From contig NZ_OMPN01000001.1 of the NCBI RefSeq assembly GCF_900291975.1, positions 372,001 through 436,000 of the forward strand: a DNA stretch of 64,000 nucleotides, given 5' to 3'. A model generated the notes under the pieces. The model was not told where the DNA came from and made no database searches. It saw only the letters and a program-made list of their open reading frames with translations. Each line of letters opens with the position of its first letter. Position 1 is the first letter of the stretch. This document shows, piece by piece, positions 35,614 to 40,149 of the stretch. A program made the translations under genes and the position numbers. Source of the stretch: Agathobaculum massiliense. Lineage in GTDB: Bacteria; Bacillota; Clostridia; Oscillospirales; Butyricicoccaceae.

Positions 35614-36798
35614 ATCAAACAGAAATGGAAAAAGCTGCTCAGTGTGCTGCTGTGCGCGGCGCTGGTCCTGTTTACTTGCCCCGTCCCCGCCCGCGCGCTT
35701 ACGCTGACCGCGGTCAATGATACGCTTCTGCCGCTTGACGACGGCACCATGCCCGCGCGTCTCGGCGGCGAGCTGTATGTGCCGTACAGCGTCTTCACCA
35801 TGCTTGGCGTTTCCGCTTCGCAGGAGGGCGGCGTGCTGAGTCTCTCTGCAAACGGGGAAACGCTCAGCTTCTCCCCCGACGAGGGATATGTATACGACCA
35901 GAACCTGAACAGCTATTCTCCCCCTGCATACCATCGGAACGGAACGGTTTATGTGCCGGTCAAGCTGTGCTGCGGCAAATTCGGCCTGAGCTATTCCACG
36001 CTGTCCTTTTCCGGTGAAACCGTACTGCGCGTGACCGACGGTTCGGCGCAAAGCGACTCCTCGTTCACCTCCTCCAATGCAGATTCGATCCAAAGCGCAA
36101 TCAATACATACAAGGGCGTCACGCCGTCCACTCCATCGGACGGCAGCGGCCAAACGACCGAGCAGCCGGCCGAGCCTCCCATCCCACCGGTTGAAGAAAA
36201 ACCGACGCAGAAGCCCGCGCGGGTTTACCTGACTTTCTATGGCGCGCCGACCACCAACACCCCCGCCGTGCTGGACGCGCTCCACAGCGCCGGCCGCCTG
36301 GCAACGTTTTTCCTTCCCGTGGATGCGTCCACCTGGACGGACGACACCGTGCGCCGCATCGTTGCGGAGGGGCATACCCCCGCACTGCTGCTGAACGCTT
36401 CCCCCCAGACCGCGCCCGCCGACCTGGTTGCCAGCCTGACCGCTGCAAACGAGCGTCTGACGCTGCTCACCGGCGTATCCACGCGCATCGTTTCCAACGA
36501 TACGGGCTGCGTCAAATTGACACAGGCACAGCGCGACGCCCTGATCGGCGCCGGCTACCGGCTGTGGGACTCCACCTTTGACAGCGGGGACGCCACCCAG
36601 TCCGCGGCAAGGGCATACGCCACCACCGCCCAGAACTTTGTCTCAACGACTGCGACCGTCGTGGTCCGCCTGCATCACAGCGCCTCCACAGCGCAGACCG
36701 TGCGCTCGCTTTCCGCCTATATGTCGAGACAGGGCATCCCCTCGTCCCGCGTCATACTGAGCGCCACACCGATCAACAGCACTTCCGATACCCGATAG
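35614..36798 (+). CDS. Exported protein with copper-amine-oxidase-N and degenerate polysaccharide deacetylase domains
   Basis: A protein of about 394 residues with a signal peptide (KQKWKKLLSVLLCAALVLFT, cut near ARA). Residues 40-145 resemble copper amine oxidase N-terminal repeats (GGELYVPYSVFTMLGVSAS). A Pro/Thr linker leads to a NodB-homology fold (about 205-390) marked by VYLTFYGAPTTNTPAVLDAL and LATFFLPVDASTW. Active deacetylases read TFDDGP and GHxxGxHT; here both catalytic aspartates and the second histidine are gone, so the domain is probably inactive. No ATG, GTG or TTG lies in frame before the signal peptide; ATC 35614, nine bases after AAAGGGG, is the best start. A shorter GTG start (35644) would lose the basic n-region. 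Confidence 0.7.
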   Translation: MKQKWKKLLSVLLCAALVLFTCPVPARALTLTAVNDTLLPLDDGTMPARLGGELYVPYSVFTMLGVSASQEGGVLSLSANGETLSFSPDEGYVYDQNLNSYSPPAYHRNGTVYVPVKLCCGKFGLSYSTLSFSGETVLRVTDGSAQSDSSFTSSNADSIQSAINTYKGVTPSTPSDGSGQTTEQPAEPPIPPVEEKPTQKPARVYLTFYGAPTTNTPAVLDALHSAGRLATFFLPVDASTWTDDTVRRIVAEGHTPALLLNASPQTAPADLVASLTAANERLTLLTGVSTRIVSNDTGCVKLTQAQRDALIGAGYRLWDSTFDSGDATQSAARAYATTAQNFVSTTATVVVRLHHSASTAQTVRSLSAYMSRQGIPSSRVILSATPINSTSDTR

Positions 36799-36906: not shown

Positions 36907-37398
36907 CTAGATCTGCTTCCTAATGTGGTCAAGCGCTCCCTTTTCCAGACGGGATACCTGCGCCTGCGAAATGTGGATCTCCTCCGCCACCTCCATCTGC
37001 GTCCGCCCCTCGAAAAAGCGCAGCCGGATGATGCGTTTCTCCCGCTCACTCAGGCTGTCGATCGCTTCGCGCAGCGCGATGCGGGCGAGCCAGTTCTCAT
37101 CGGTATTTTTATTGTCTCCCACCTGGTCCATCACACATACCGTGTCCGCGCCGTCATGAAAAACCGGCTCAAACAGGGACACCGGATCAAGAATCGCGTC
37201 AAGCGCGAATACCACCTCCTCCTTGGGTACGTCCATCGCCTTGGCCAGCTCCACGATATCCGGCTCGCGCTGGTGCTCGCGCATGAAGGCTTCCTTGGCC
37301 TGCAACGCCTTATAGGCGGTATCCCGAAGGCTGCGGGATACCCGCAGCGCGCTGTTGTCCCGCAGGTAGCGCCGGATTTCCCCTATAATCATCGGCAT
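36907..37398 (-). pseudogene. sigG: 3' part of sporulation sigma factor SigG, 5' part missing
   Basis: The 163-residue frame aligns with SigG from the middle of region 2 to the C-terminus: MPMIIGEIRRYLRDNSALRV, SRSLRDTAYKALQAKE, FALDAILDPVSLFEPVF, and the region 4 helix TQMEVAEEIHISQAQVSRLE. From memory of Bacillus SigG (about 260 residues), identity begins at the P-M of YAVPMIIGEI, so roughly 95-100 N-terminal residues, including most core-binding and -10-melting parts, are absent. There is no RBS before the ATG. Just 22 bp upstream the coding strand runs into the stop of a large serine recombinase. The missing part is nowhere in this window. It may be an element-split gene (skin-like), one side of an inversion, or a relic; I list it as broken because it cannot work as it stands. 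Confidence 0.8.
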
Positions 37399-37420
37399 GA
37401 ACGTACAAAGGAGAAAACAG

Positions 37421-38797
37421 CTATCCCGCTACCGTTCCGTATCCGCTGGCGCCCTCAATGGCATAATATATTTCGACCTTGCCGTTTTGCAGCACGATCT
37501 TTTCCACGCAGGCGCGTATCAGCGCCTGCCGCTCCTCACCGGCCAGGCTGTCCCAACAGGCGCCGATGGTATATAACGCCCGCCGCGCTTCCTCATCCTC
37601 CCGCCGCTGCTCCTGCCGCTGCGCGGCGGAAAGCGCCTGCTCGGCCCGTTCCCGCTCTTTTTTGACGCGCTCGATCGATTCGCGCAGCGTATCGTCCTCC
37701 GCGTCGGCATACAGCTCGTACAGGCGGCGCAGCTTGCGCTGGACCCGCTCCAGCGTCCGGCGGCACTCTGCCGCATCCCCCTGCCGTTGGCGTGGCACCG
37801 ACGGCTGCGCGGACAGCCTCGCCAGATCGCGTATGACAATCGCCTCCACCTCGCGCGCCATCACCCCCCGATTCGGACAGGCGGCATCATGCACCAGATG
37901 GGGCTTGGACTTATCCCGTGAGTAGCAGACCAGCTTATCCCCCGCGTTGCCCCATTTCTGATAGCGCATTTTAGCGCCGCAGTGTCCGCAGACCAGTAGG
38001 CCGGCCAGCAGCTTGCCCGCCCCCGCAGCGCGCGGCCGGTTGGGGCGGTGCAGCCGGCGCTGCGCTCGCGCAAAGGTTTCGCGGTCAATAAGCGGCTCAT
38101 GCCGCCCCGCGTAGCGCTCGCCTTTATAGACGATCACGCCTGTGTTGCTCTCCCGATCCAATATCTGCCGCACCAGATGCTCGTATTTCAGCCCCAACTC
38201 GCGCGCGATGCGTCCGGCCGACTGGCCCTCCAGATACCGCGCGTAGATCTCACGTACGGTATCCGCATCGCTGTTGGGAACCAGGATGCCCTTCCCCGCG
38301 TCGTAATCATATCCAAACGGTATTTTGCCGCCGCCCGGCCAGAAGCCCTGCTTGACGCGCTCGACCATGCCCATACGGGTGCGCAGAAAGATGTTCTCTC
38401 GTTCGAGCTGAGCAAATGCGGACAGAATACCGATCATCGCGCGCCCATACGGACTGCCGGTATCAATATTTTCATTGATCGATACAAAGTCCACCCCATG
38501 TGGCAGAAAAACGTCCTCAATCAGGTAAAGCGTGTCTTTCTGGCTTCGGCTCAGGCGGTCAAGCTTGTAGACAACGACGCGCTCGACCGCGCCGGCGCGG
38601 ATTTCCTCCACCAACTCGGTAACGGCCGGCCGTGTCAGGTTTGAGCCGGAAAAACCGCCGTCCACATACCGACGGAAGCGGGTGATCCCTTTCATCCGGC
38701 AGTACGCTTCCAGTTTTTCGGCCTGCGCCGCGAGCGAGTATCCTTCGTCCGCCTGTGCTTCGGTCGATACGCGCAGATATAATGCGGTGTGTTTCAT
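37421..38797 (-). CDS. Large serine recombinase
   Basis: This 458-residue site-specific recombinase of the CisA/TnpX/phiC31-type class has the N-terminal resolvase domain with catalytic Ser11 in YLRVSTEAQADEGYSLAAQ, VYKLDRLSRSQKDTLYL and AFAQLERENIFLRTRMGM. The Recombinase domain follows (KIPFGYDYD to about residue 270), then a zinc ribbon (LLVCGHCGAKM ... LVCYS ... ACPN) and a long coiled coil (about 345-410, LERVQRKLRRLYELYADAED). Such enzymes cut and rejoin at att sites that usually flank their own gene. Its 3' end lies 22 bp from the sigG fragment, which suggests one att site is at that junction. It overlaps the 62-residue gene upstream by 4 bp (ATGA). Confidence 0.93.
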   Translation of the reverse strand: MKHTALYLRVSTEAQADEGYSLAAQAEKLEAYCRMKGITRFRRYVDGGFSGSNLTRPAVTELVEEIRAGAVERVVVYKLDRLSRSQKDTLYLIEDVFLPHGVDFVSINENIDTGSPYGRAMIGILSAFAQLERENIFLRTRMGMVERVKQGFWPGGGKIPFGYDYDAGKGILVPNSDADTVREIYARYLEGQSAGRIARELGLKYEHLVRQILDRESNTGVIVYKGERYAGRHEPLIDRETFARAQRRLHRPNRPRAAGAGKLLAGLLVCGHCGAKMRYQKWGNAGDKLVCYSRDKSKPHLVHDAACPNRGVMAREVEAIVIRDLARLSAQPSVPRQRQGDAAECRRTLERVQRKLRRLYELYADAEDDTLRESIERVKKERERAEQALSAAQRQEQRREDEEARRALYTIGACWDSLAGEERQALIRACVEKIVLQNGKVEIYYAIEGASGYGTVAG

Positions 38798-38982
38798 GAA
38801 ATATCCTTTCCAAGACCGCGTTCCTCCGCTTCCAGTATAGCAGAGGGCGGCGGCTCCGGCAACGGAAGTTCCTGCCGGAAGCGCGCCTCGCGCAGCAGCA
38901 TGCCGATCCCTTCCTGGTCAAGCAGCAGCGGCGGCAGCACACCGTGAAGCCGCTTCCCGTTCAAATAACGCACCACGCGCAT
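38794..38982 (-). CDS. Small protein coupled to the recombinase
   Basis: This 62-residue protein opens MRVVRYLNGKRLHGVLPPLL, with a Pro-rich middle (ELPLPEPPPSA). I do not recognise it. Its stop overlaps the recombinase start, so the two are co-translated, and its RBS AAAGGAGGTG is strong. In recombinase elements such a partner could be a directionality factor, but nothing in the sequence proves it. Confidence 0.6.
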   Translation of the reverse strand: MRVVRYLNGKRLHGVLPPLLLDQEGIGMLLREARFRQELPLPEPPPSAILEAEERGLGKDIS

Positions 38983-39069
38983 GCGGACCACCTCCTTTCC
39001 CCTTTATTCTGCCCAGGTTTGCCCTTTTGCAACCGTTCGGACGCTCTTCCAAACCGCTCCACAAAGTAA

Positions 39070-39174: not shown

Positions 39175-40149
39175 ATGTTTGAAAATCTGATTGCCACGCT
39201 CAAGGCCGACAAGCGTAAAATCGTATTCACCGAGGGGCCGGACCCCCGCATTCTGGAAGCCGCCTCCCGCCTGAAGAAAGACGGCCTGCTGGATTCTATC
39301 CTGGTCGGCAATGTGGACGAAGTCAAGTCCGCCGCTGCCGCAGGCGGTTTTGACATCGAGGGCATGGAAATCATCGACCCTGCGGCTTATCCGGAAATGG
39401 ACGCGATGGTCGCCAGGATGGTCGAGCTGCGCAAGGGCAAGATGACCGAGGAGCAGTGCCGCGCAGCGCTTTCCAAGGGCAATTATTTCGGCACCATGCT
39501 GGTCAAGCTGGGCAAGGCAGACGCCCTGCTCGGCGGCGCTACTTATTCGACTGCGGACACCGTCCGCCCCGCTCTGCAGATCATCAAGACCAAGCCGGGC
39601 AACAAGATCGTATCCTCCTGCTTCATCCTGCGCCGCGACGGCAAGGATGGCGGCGACGAGTTGTACGCGATGGGCGACTGCGCGATCAATATCAATCCGA
39701 GCGAGGACGATCTGATGGAAATCGCCATTGAAACTGCAAAAACCGCCAAGGCGTTCGGTATCGACCCCAAGGTGGCCATGCTATCCTACTCGACCAAAGG
39801 CTCCGGCAAGGGCGAAACGGTTGATATGATGAAGAATGCAACCGAAAAAACTAAAGCGGCTGCGCCTGATCTCGCGGTAGACGGCGAGCTGCAGTTCGAC
39901 GCCGCGTTCTCCCCTGTCGTTGCGGCGACCAAGTGCAAGGGCTCTCCGGTTGCCGGCCAGGCCAACACCTTTATTTTCCCTGATATCAACGCGGGCAACA
40001 TTGGCTACAAAATCGCCCAGCGTCTGGGCGGCTTCGAGGCCTACGGCCCGATTCTGCAGGGTCTGAACGCGCCGATCAACGATCTGTCCCGCGGCTGTAA
40101 CGCGGATGAGGTCTATCAGATGGCGATCATCACCGCCGGCCTGAAATAA
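39175..40149 (+). CDS. pta: Phosphate acetyltransferase
   Basis: This 324-residue enzyme interconverts acetyl-CoA and acetyl phosphate in acetate formation. Motifs include KIVFTEGPDPRILEAASRLK, KGNYFGTMLVKLGKADALLG, and SPVAGQANTFIFPDINAGNIGYKIAQRLGG. Length fits the short PTA class. ATG 39175 follows GAGGAG. No acetate kinase is adjacent; a terminator follows. Confidence 0.93.
   Translation: MFENLIATLKADKRKIVFTEGPDPRILEAASRLKKDGLLDSILVGNVDEVKSAAAAGGFDIEGMEIIDPAAYPEMDAMVARMVELRKGKMTEEQCRAALSKGNYFGTMLVKLGKADALLGGATYSTADTVRPALQIIKTKPGNKIVSSCFILRRDGKDGGDELYAMGDCAININPSEDDLMEIAIETAKTAKAFGIDPKVAMLSYSTKGSGKGETVDMMKNATEKTKAAAPDLAVDGELQFDAAFSPVVAATKCKGSPVAGQANTFIFPDINAGNIGYKIAQRLGGFEAYGPILQGLNAPINDLSRGCNADEVYQMAIITAGLK

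Follow-up and report, generated by a model that had tools for sequence, protein, structure and literature searches.

The 64,000-nucleotide (nt) stretch of Agathobaculum massiliense DNA analyzed here, called the window, spans positions 372001-436000 of C2, one of the two contigs of a 3.2-Mb genome (G000). It contains the 3' part of sigG, the gene for the forespore sigma factor sigmaG, and next to it a large serine recombinase gene (rec) preceded by a gene for a small protein (the small partner; the two genes together are called small-rec). The features of the locus are listed below in window coordinates, the attachment (att) site arms being readings of the sequence.

36907..37398, minus strand: sigG 3' part (end of region 2, regions 3 and 4), 163 codons, TIGR02850
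37389..37397, minus strand: recombination core TGCCGATGA; the identical 9 bp stand at the end of the sigG 5' part, at about C2 position 296945
37394-37395, minus strand: putative crossover, the CC of the Pro codon, within the core
37377..37388, minus strand: B' half of attR, on the sigG coding side, TTATAGGGGAAA
37398..37419, minus strand: P half of attR, TTTTCTCCTTTGTACGTTCA, a non-coding arm
37421..38797, minus strand: rec, large serine recombinase of 458 amino acids (aa), by Pfam
38794..38982, minus strand: small partner, 62 aa, its stop overlapping the rec start
39005..39034, minus strand: sigmaF-type promoter of small-rec, with -35 GGTTG (39030-39034), a 15-nt spacer and -10 GGGCAGAATA (39005-39014)
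39175..40149, plus strand: pta, a conserved neighbor that adjoins intact sigG in genomes G001 and G016
35644..36798, plus strand: neighboring gene downstream of the sigG 3' part, presumably polysaccharide-deacetylase-like

The two halves of sigG and their junctions

In a profile search the 163-aa open reading frame (ORF) at 36907-37398 (minus strand) matches positions 92-254 of the 254 positions of TIGR02850 with 260 bits, and two SigG models are its top NCBIfam matches. The window holds the C-terminal 64% of sigG, lacks the N-terminal part, and cuts the gene at the Pro codon of YAVP-M. This is in agreement with an earlier note, made from the letters alone, which had described only the C-terminal 60% or so of SigG, with similarity starting at the P-M of YAVPMIIGEI. 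The cut sits at the region 2 border, and residue 28 of the 3' part is the start of region 3; Sigma70_r3 and Sigma70_r4 are both found in this part by Pfam. No Shine-Dalgarno (SD) sequence is seen before its first ATG.

The sigG 5' part, which the same note had expected outside the window, lies at C2:296939-297223 (minus strand), about 75 kb to the left of the window start. It matches TIGR02850 positions 2-96 and is situated 112 kb from the 3' part on the same strand. The genome-wide search proposed in the note found both this part and a second att-like site, supporting the view that a sporulation gene has been interrupted by means of a serine recombinase. A second intact sigG together with the lack of any 5' fragment would have pointed to a relic; the 5' fragment exists, and intact sigG was not found in G000 by the profile search, the remaining matches being lower-scoring and resembling other sigma factors. 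The second-best match (positions 19-252, 158 bits), which recurs across the genus, is taken to be sigF.

At the 5' half junction the sequence runs ...TTTTTCCACCTATGCCG, then TGCCGATGA, then ACGTTGTTTGGGGAAA, and at the 3' half junction ...TTTTCTCCTTTGTACGTTCA, then TGCCGATGA, then TTATAGGGGAAATCC. Joining the two sigG sides produces YAVPMIIGEI in frame (FSTYAVPM + IIGEIRRYL), while joining the other two flanks produces a palindromic attP, ACGTTCAT-GCCG-ATGAACGT. As in skin-type systems, a sporulation gene is split and its frame would be restored by joining att sites. The sites of large serine integrases have a short common core and inverted repeats, the arms of attP being longer than those of attB. 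The sigG junctions are organized in the same way. In 19 of 20 split genomes the arm motif precedes the CC by 17 nt on the sigG side (B arm) and by 21 nt on the recombinase side (P arm), which places the P-arm motif 4 nt farther from the crossover; these distances were measured by a script that missed the P arm of G000, which was read by eye. On the right side of the G000 sites, measured by hand, GGGG follows the ATG at a distance of 6 nt in the B arm and of 10 nt in the P arm.

Across the genus this layout recurs at the junctions of 21 split 5' parts and 22 split 3' parts. All nine core bases are common to both junctions in 18 of the 20 genomes that have both halves, the core differing by one base between junctions in G018 and G023. 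The cores of G018 have only CC and ATGA in common on the crossover side, and the base following CC varies outside G018 too. Because the bases around CC vary between cores, the CC of the Pro codon is the most likely crossover point, which would account for the shared cut at this codon.

The complete serine recombinase gene reported earlier is rec, whose 458-aa ORF ends at 37421, leaving a 22-bp gap to the sigG 3' part. Its product has the Resolvase domain (PF00239, 7.9e-38) followed by the Recombinase (PF07508, 8.2e-11) and zinc-ribbon (Zn_ribbon_recom, PF13408, 4.7e-12) domains of a large serine recombinase, all above the cut-off, and matches the phage-integrase-like large serine recombinases of phrog_95 in PHROGs. 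It is presumably this enzyme that recombines the sigG att sites. The short ORF overlapping the rec start codon, already recognized as a co-translated partner, is present at all 22 genus 3' loci. Its residues R4, G8 and R35 are nearly invariant among 23 chosen sequences from several lineages. It has no match in Pfam, PHROGs or NCBIfam, and its predicted structure is weak (predicted local distance difference test, pLDDT, 70; predicted template modeling score, pTM, 0.32). By analogy with CD1234 of the Clostridioides difficile skin element, the small partner is a candidate recombination directionality factor.

Distribution of split sigG in the genus and in other Clostridia

The highest-identity rec loci in named genomes come mostly from Agathobaculum, and also from Butyricicoccus faecihominis. 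The genomes in all surveys reported here are related, and the counts are not independent. In 23 of the 25 genus genomes sigG is split, with both halves present in 20, only the 3' half in G012 and G013, and only the 5' half in G021; in G018 the 3' half is additionally cut by a contig end. Agathobaculum desmolans ATCC 43058 (L100) has a split sigG. Since the same cut recurs in these 23 genomes and in other Clostridia, an assembly error, which the earlier note had allowed for, is ruled out as the cause of the split. The recombinase is present in 22 of the 25 genomes (G000 included), all of them among the 23 split ones, and is absent from G001, G016 and G021.

In the split genomes small-rec is situated beside the 3' half with pta on the far side, except in G011 and G017, where pta was not seen. 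The 5' half is followed by mtaD and then pnp, the contig of G015 stopping inside mtaD (pta, mtaD and pnp are what we take these genes to be). The two genomes with intact sigG, G001 and G016, offer the comparison that the earlier note had called for: both carry pta beside sigG and lack rec, from which the ancestral place of sigG is probably beside pta. For the same reason they were rejected as candidates for the joined state. In a tree of sigG and pta, G001 is at the midpoint root and G016 lies inside the split genomes; this nesting suggests that G016 represents a later loss or replacement, or a mixed bin.

Between split genomes, the ratio of nonsynonymous to synonymous differences (pN/pS) is 0.13 for the sigG 5' half, 0.09 for the 3' half, 0.20 for rec and 0.36 for the small partner, compared with 0.07 for pta, 0.16 for mtaD and 0.10 for bcat; these are ratios of means at a mean pS of 0.4-0.6 and hence rough figures. 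The sigG halves and rec are under purifying selection, and the halves display neither the relaxed selection nor the frame decay of pseudogenes. Though separate, the halves thus behave like functional genes, which would be difficult to account for if the joined gene were not in use.

Relatives of rec were followed outside the genus in the best 80 of 126 loci. In the 20 loci of the genus group rec is always beside the sigG 3' half. Among the 60 others, rec is beside the 3' half in 12 and beside the 5' half in 13; a half lies elsewhere in the locus in 9, and 26 have none. These 26 genomes and four others, chosen because of their rec relative, were searched for sigG. The halves are separate in 21 of the 30 (counting G228, whose 3' half is partial), six have one half, two have none, and one (G224) has intact sigG. 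Genomes whose rec is away from the sigG halves mostly have a split sigG too, and in a tree of rec relatives the recs beside sigG halves are scattered and mixed with those that are not. G224 (locus L124) was considered as a joined state; the P' arm was not seen by eye behind its rec. A record labeled Candidatus Methanovirga (L136) also carries a sigG 3' half with a rec relative; in all likelihood it is a Clostridia contig placed in the wrong bin.

A sample of 197 genomes of the order (completeness at least 90%) was classified by E-value, a best E of 1e-99 or lower being called intact and one of 1e-71 to 1e-82 split-like, with query ranges known for part of the sample, among the matches listed. 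By this measure sigG is intact in 167 (by subtraction from 197), split-like in 12, represented by weak matches only in 7, and without a match at the cut-off in 11. Five of the 12 split-like genomes are in the genus, both halves are found in four of genus g40, and G025 and G155 have the 3' half alone at the rec locus. A rec relative (1e-100) occurs in 15 of the 197 genomes: in 11 of the 12 split-like ones, in none of the 167 intact ones, and in G018, G131, G151 and G158. These carriers fall in four genera, which indicates few independent events.

Forespore-type promoters, geometry and proposed assembly of sigG

The sigmaF consensus is GYATA-N15-GGNNANANTR. All 23 sigG 5' starts of the genus (21 from split and 2 from intact genomes) are preceded by GTATA-N15-GGGGAAAAT, in agreement with this consensus except for the last base. 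GTATA and GGGTATCCTA are listed for the sigG of Epulopiscium (PMC3416734). For small-rec, 21 of 22 genus genomes have GGNNANANTR in the 60 nt upstream. In each of them a 15-nt spacer separates it from a preceding GRYTR, a -35 pattern that was defined after viewing these upstream sequences. Both small-rec and the sigG 5' half thus appear, from sequence, to carry sigmaF-type (forespore) promoters. Outside the genus, 30 of the 60 loci, those with an accepted short partner ORF, were scanned against 1200 control windows from the same loci. The mean best sigmaF-like score is 9.07 of 11 versus 7.80 in the controls, scores of at least 10 are reached at 9 of the 30 loci versus 1.5% of the 1200 windows, and 15 of the 30 best sites are situated 44-58 nt before the start with a 15-nt spacer. 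Overlap of sigmaF and sigmaG promoters is reported for C. difficile (PMC7438776), and small-rec could be under sigmaG control instead of sigmaF. The small-rec promoter has the GG that marks sigmaF, whereas inspection by eye did not reveal this GG in the sigmaG-like promoter of ssp, the small acid-soluble spore protein (SASP) gene, in the genus.

The position of the halves differs between genomes. The order on the minus strand of G000 is 3' half, then 5' half, and att recombination would release a 112-kb circle with intact sigG, attP and rec being left on the chromosome. C2 is probably a closed circle, because its first and last bases overlap (L225, L226); its start resembles part of a mobile element. 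The single 4.0-Mb contig of G004 carries the halves on opposite strands and 757 kb apart, so that joining would be a 757-kb inversion. The halves of Hominifimenecus microfluidus (G232) are also on opposite strands, 26 kb apart. A skin-type arrangement, in which the halves flank one excisable element in direct order, is not found in G000 or G004 and is found in L111 (2.5 kb), Ruminococcus albus 8 (G242, 8.5 kb), G243 (6.6 kb) and four sampled genomes of g40 (about 6.4 kb). The g40 intervening DNA next to rec (L269, L270, L272) has similar host-like, metabolic-looking frames by eye, presumably for an alcohol dehydrogenase and for oxidoreductase-like, MoaD-like and ThiF-like proteins. In the 30 genomes with a rec relative the halves are mostly on different contigs, and the geometry was read in a few. 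The layout of a developmentally excised element, recognized in the earlier note, is borne out by the two halves and their att sites; the geometry of G000 is not that of a simple excised element.

We consider it quite probable that the two att-ended halves of sigG are joined in the forespore by sigmaF-driven Rec, and that the split is re-made after germination. The halves would end in the attL and attR of a dedicated large serine recombinase. Active sigmaF in the forespore would drive the sigG 5' half and the small-rec operon. Aided by the small protein as directionality factor, Rec would then recombine attL and attR, with the crossover at the CC of the Pro codon. The products would be an intact sigG under its own sigmaF promoter and an attP elsewhere, with sigmaG being made only after DNA joining and only in the forespore. 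The topology would be set by the position of the halves: a 112-kb circle, a 757-kb inversion, or an excision of about 2-9 kb elsewhere.

Because the forespore genome is the spore genome, the split would have to be re-made after germination, the simplest route being recombination of attP with attB by Rec without its partner. A used sigG means passage through spores, in which an unrestored split would vanish; the persistence of the split is our chief ground for proposing a reset. The earlier argument that a forespore gene needs a reversible solution is in this respect supported, while the reversal itself is something we infer. The wider proposal of a programmed, reversible germ-line rearrangement, in which each forespore assembles sigG and each germinating spore splits it again, is advanced tentatively and given not quite even weight. 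Taking dnaA as the origin, the halves are 131 and 243 kb from the opposite point in G000 and 168 and 589 kb from it in G004, the two genomes that were placed. Since both halves are on the terminus side there, the joining may also check that chromosome transfer into the forespore has been completed before sigmaG is made.

Several observations weigh against forespore joining. The exact joined attP occurs in none of the 25 genus genomes, and the recombined product was not seen. With one mismatch allowed, attP gives 14 sites in 10 genus genomes versus 0 for a backward control; judged by contig and position, none of them adjoins rec or the sigG 5' half, and P-arm motifs are lacking beside the 10 of the 14 that were examined at the locus level. 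None of the 22 rec-bearing genus genomes has intact sigG, G016 is intact though nested among split genomes, G224 combines intact sigG with a rec relative (possibly by bin mixing), and G083 is split-like without rec at 1e-100. The -35 of small-rec in the genus (GRYTR) differs from the GYATA of sigmaF, and in G017, where a contig begins nearby, the small-rec promoter is absent. A short ORF precedes rec at 45 of the 60 loci outside the genus by a permissive rule, some of these ORFs not resembling the small-partner family, and was not found by that rule at the other 15, which slightly lowers our confidence. SpoIIR is a sigmaF target. No match to it (TIGR02837, 1e-10) was found in the 25 genus genomes, although the Bacillus subtilis control was found; in the genus its gene may be missing, may have diverged strongly or may also be in pieces. 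For this reason it was dropped as a source of sigmaF promoters, and sigG 5' and ssp were used instead. The split of ssp in G000 could point to decaying sporulation. Finally, spore formation by Agathobaculum is not reported in the titles and abstract openings found.

The split of ssp in G000, the lack of a SpoIIR match in the genus and the failure to see a recombined state would also fit a relic. Under this reading an element once disrupted sigG, the ability to sporulate is fading or already lost, and the halves are remnants in decay. This is quite unlikely, since the halves have kept their reading frames and remain under purifying selection in the split genomes compared (21 for the 5' half, 22 for the 3' half), and the recombination arms, the promoters, rec and the small partner are conserved. 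SASP genes or parts of them remain in 24 of the 25 genus genomes. Judged by eye, the 19 ssp upstream stretches that were read retain a sigmaG-like promoter, ssp being a known sigmaG target. An ordinary mobile element that used sigG as its attB, with no developmental role and with halves that later drifted apart, would account for the kinship of rec with phage integrases (phrog_95) and for its position inside a 2.5-8.5 kb intervening stretch in some genomes. It would leave the selection on the halves and the forespore-type promoter unexplained, and the G000 junctions have no element-like DNA beyond small-rec, with mtaD-pnp at one and pta at the other; the g40 intervening DNA resembles host metabolic genes by eye. 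We regard this explanation as very unlikely.

Random joining in vegetative cells might instead create heritable sporulation-competent and -incompetent subpopulations, without a forespore step. Reversible recombinase switches exist in gut Clostridia, C. difficile among them, and every rec-bearing genus assembly is split, which means that split cells dominate. Such phase variation is nevertheless unlikely: the joined state is absent among the 22 rec-bearing genus genomes, and the sigmaF-type promoter that small-rec has in the genus, and in some of the other lineages, fits expression confined to the forespore. SigO-RsoA is a two-piece sigma factor, and the sigG halves might likewise be translated separately and cooperate without DNA joining, both being open frames with an ATG just before the Pro codon in 21 of 22 split 3' parts (G023 has only the next ATG). 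An SD-like motif, however, precedes the 5' start in 23 of 23 genomes and the 3' start at 0 of 22 split loci, giving no sign in the sequence that the 3' part is translated independently. The tails encoded after the core vary in sequence and length, with 3 residues in G009, G010 and G023, the cut falls at the region 2 border with region 3 starting at residue 28 of the 3' part, and rec tracks the split. A two-piece sigmaG is extremely improbable.

The SASP gene of the genus is also found in pieces. In G000 the 3' part of this alpha/beta SASP gene lies at C2:3187228-3187344 (L186) and the 5' part at C2:3207028-3207114 (L193), and two pieces are likewise present in G022, G009 and G015. The pieces are in direct order about 20 kb apart in G000, 4 kb in G022 and 16 kb in G009, and on two contigs in G015; joined, they give AEVGVNL in frame by eye. 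GAGGTTG stands on both sides in G015 and G022 (and at the 5' part in G005) and has drifted in G000, G009 and G010. Only the 3' part is present in G008, G017, G020 and G021, and only the 5' part in G005 and G010; the gene is whole in 12 of 25 genomes, nearly whole in G013 and G024, and missing from G012. A different serine recombinase (557-558 aa), with a sigmaA-like promoter by eye, is situated beside the 3' part in G000, G022 and G009. There are 27 PF07508 matches on C2 of G000, a single 3.2-Mb genome; other than rec and the ssp recombinase, none is beside a spore gene half, as judged by eye in short loci. The SASP gene is possibly a second forespore gene under rearrangement.

Comparison with known rearrangements of sporulation genes

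A report of a split, interrupted or rearranged sigG was not found among the titles and abstract openings listed from a mostly open-access literature that did not include bioRxiv, and prior art may exist. Three candidates were rejected from their excerpts: the Ruminococcus bromii paper PMC5814915 matched through a reagent name (Sigma G8751), the Epulopiscium paper PMC3416734 does not show a split sigG, and the SigG mention in the SPbeta review PMC8270828 concerns sspC. The stated logic of rearrangement in spore formers is that it takes place in the mother cell only, so that the spore genome loses nothing (PMC4191935). In Agathobaculum, throughout almost the entire genus, and in other Clostridia as well, it is the master regulator of the forespore that is split, and the genome passed on would be the rearranged one. 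Either the split is reset each generation, or the account of sigmaG in Agathobaculum and its split relatives is wrong. If true, the system would give germ-line DNA rearrangement a bacterial counterpart that can be tested. Genome-based predictions of sporulation in gut Clostridia would be affected as well, since sigG can look broken, and a recombinase family with defined sites becomes available.

The C. difficile flagellar switch resembles the sigG system in that reversible site-specific recombination controls a trait. It inverts a segment upstream of an operon, whereas sigG consists of two coding halves and its recombinase has a developmental promoter. In B. cereus ATCC10987 gerE is interrupted by the gin element, which encodes serine recombinases, lacks phage genes and has a shared core of 9 bp (PMC5595907), and vfbin in spoVFB and vrin in spoVR are gene-intervening elements as well (PMC4191935). 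The core of gin matches that of sigG in length. These elements differ in occupying mother-cell genes of single named strains, gin being a contiguous 28.6-kb element. SPbeta in spsM (SprA/SprB) has in common with sigG a serine recombinase that rejoins a sporulation gene and att sites with inverted repeats; spsM is not a regulator, whereas sigG is. The known excisions, that of SPbeta included, are confined to the mother cell, with the element kept in the spore genome (PMC4191935).

The closest relation is to the skin element of sigK (SpoIVCA in B. subtilis, CD1231 and CD1234 in C. difficile), in which the coding sequence of a sporulation sigma factor is likewise split and a large serine recombinase is responsible. 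CD1231 alone carries out attP x attB recombination, CD1234 is needed for attL x attR, and excision is limited to the mother cell (PMC5025042). The C. difficile element has a small directionality partner, of which the small partner of rec is a candidate counterpart. The two systems differ in that the spore keeps skin, while sigG is a forespore gene with forespore-type promoters, which argue against confinement to the mother cell, and in that the sigG halves of G000 and G004 are 112-757 kb apart with no element between them. The sigG system would thus resemble skin in its working, with the difference that the gene concerned belongs to the cell whose genome is passed on.

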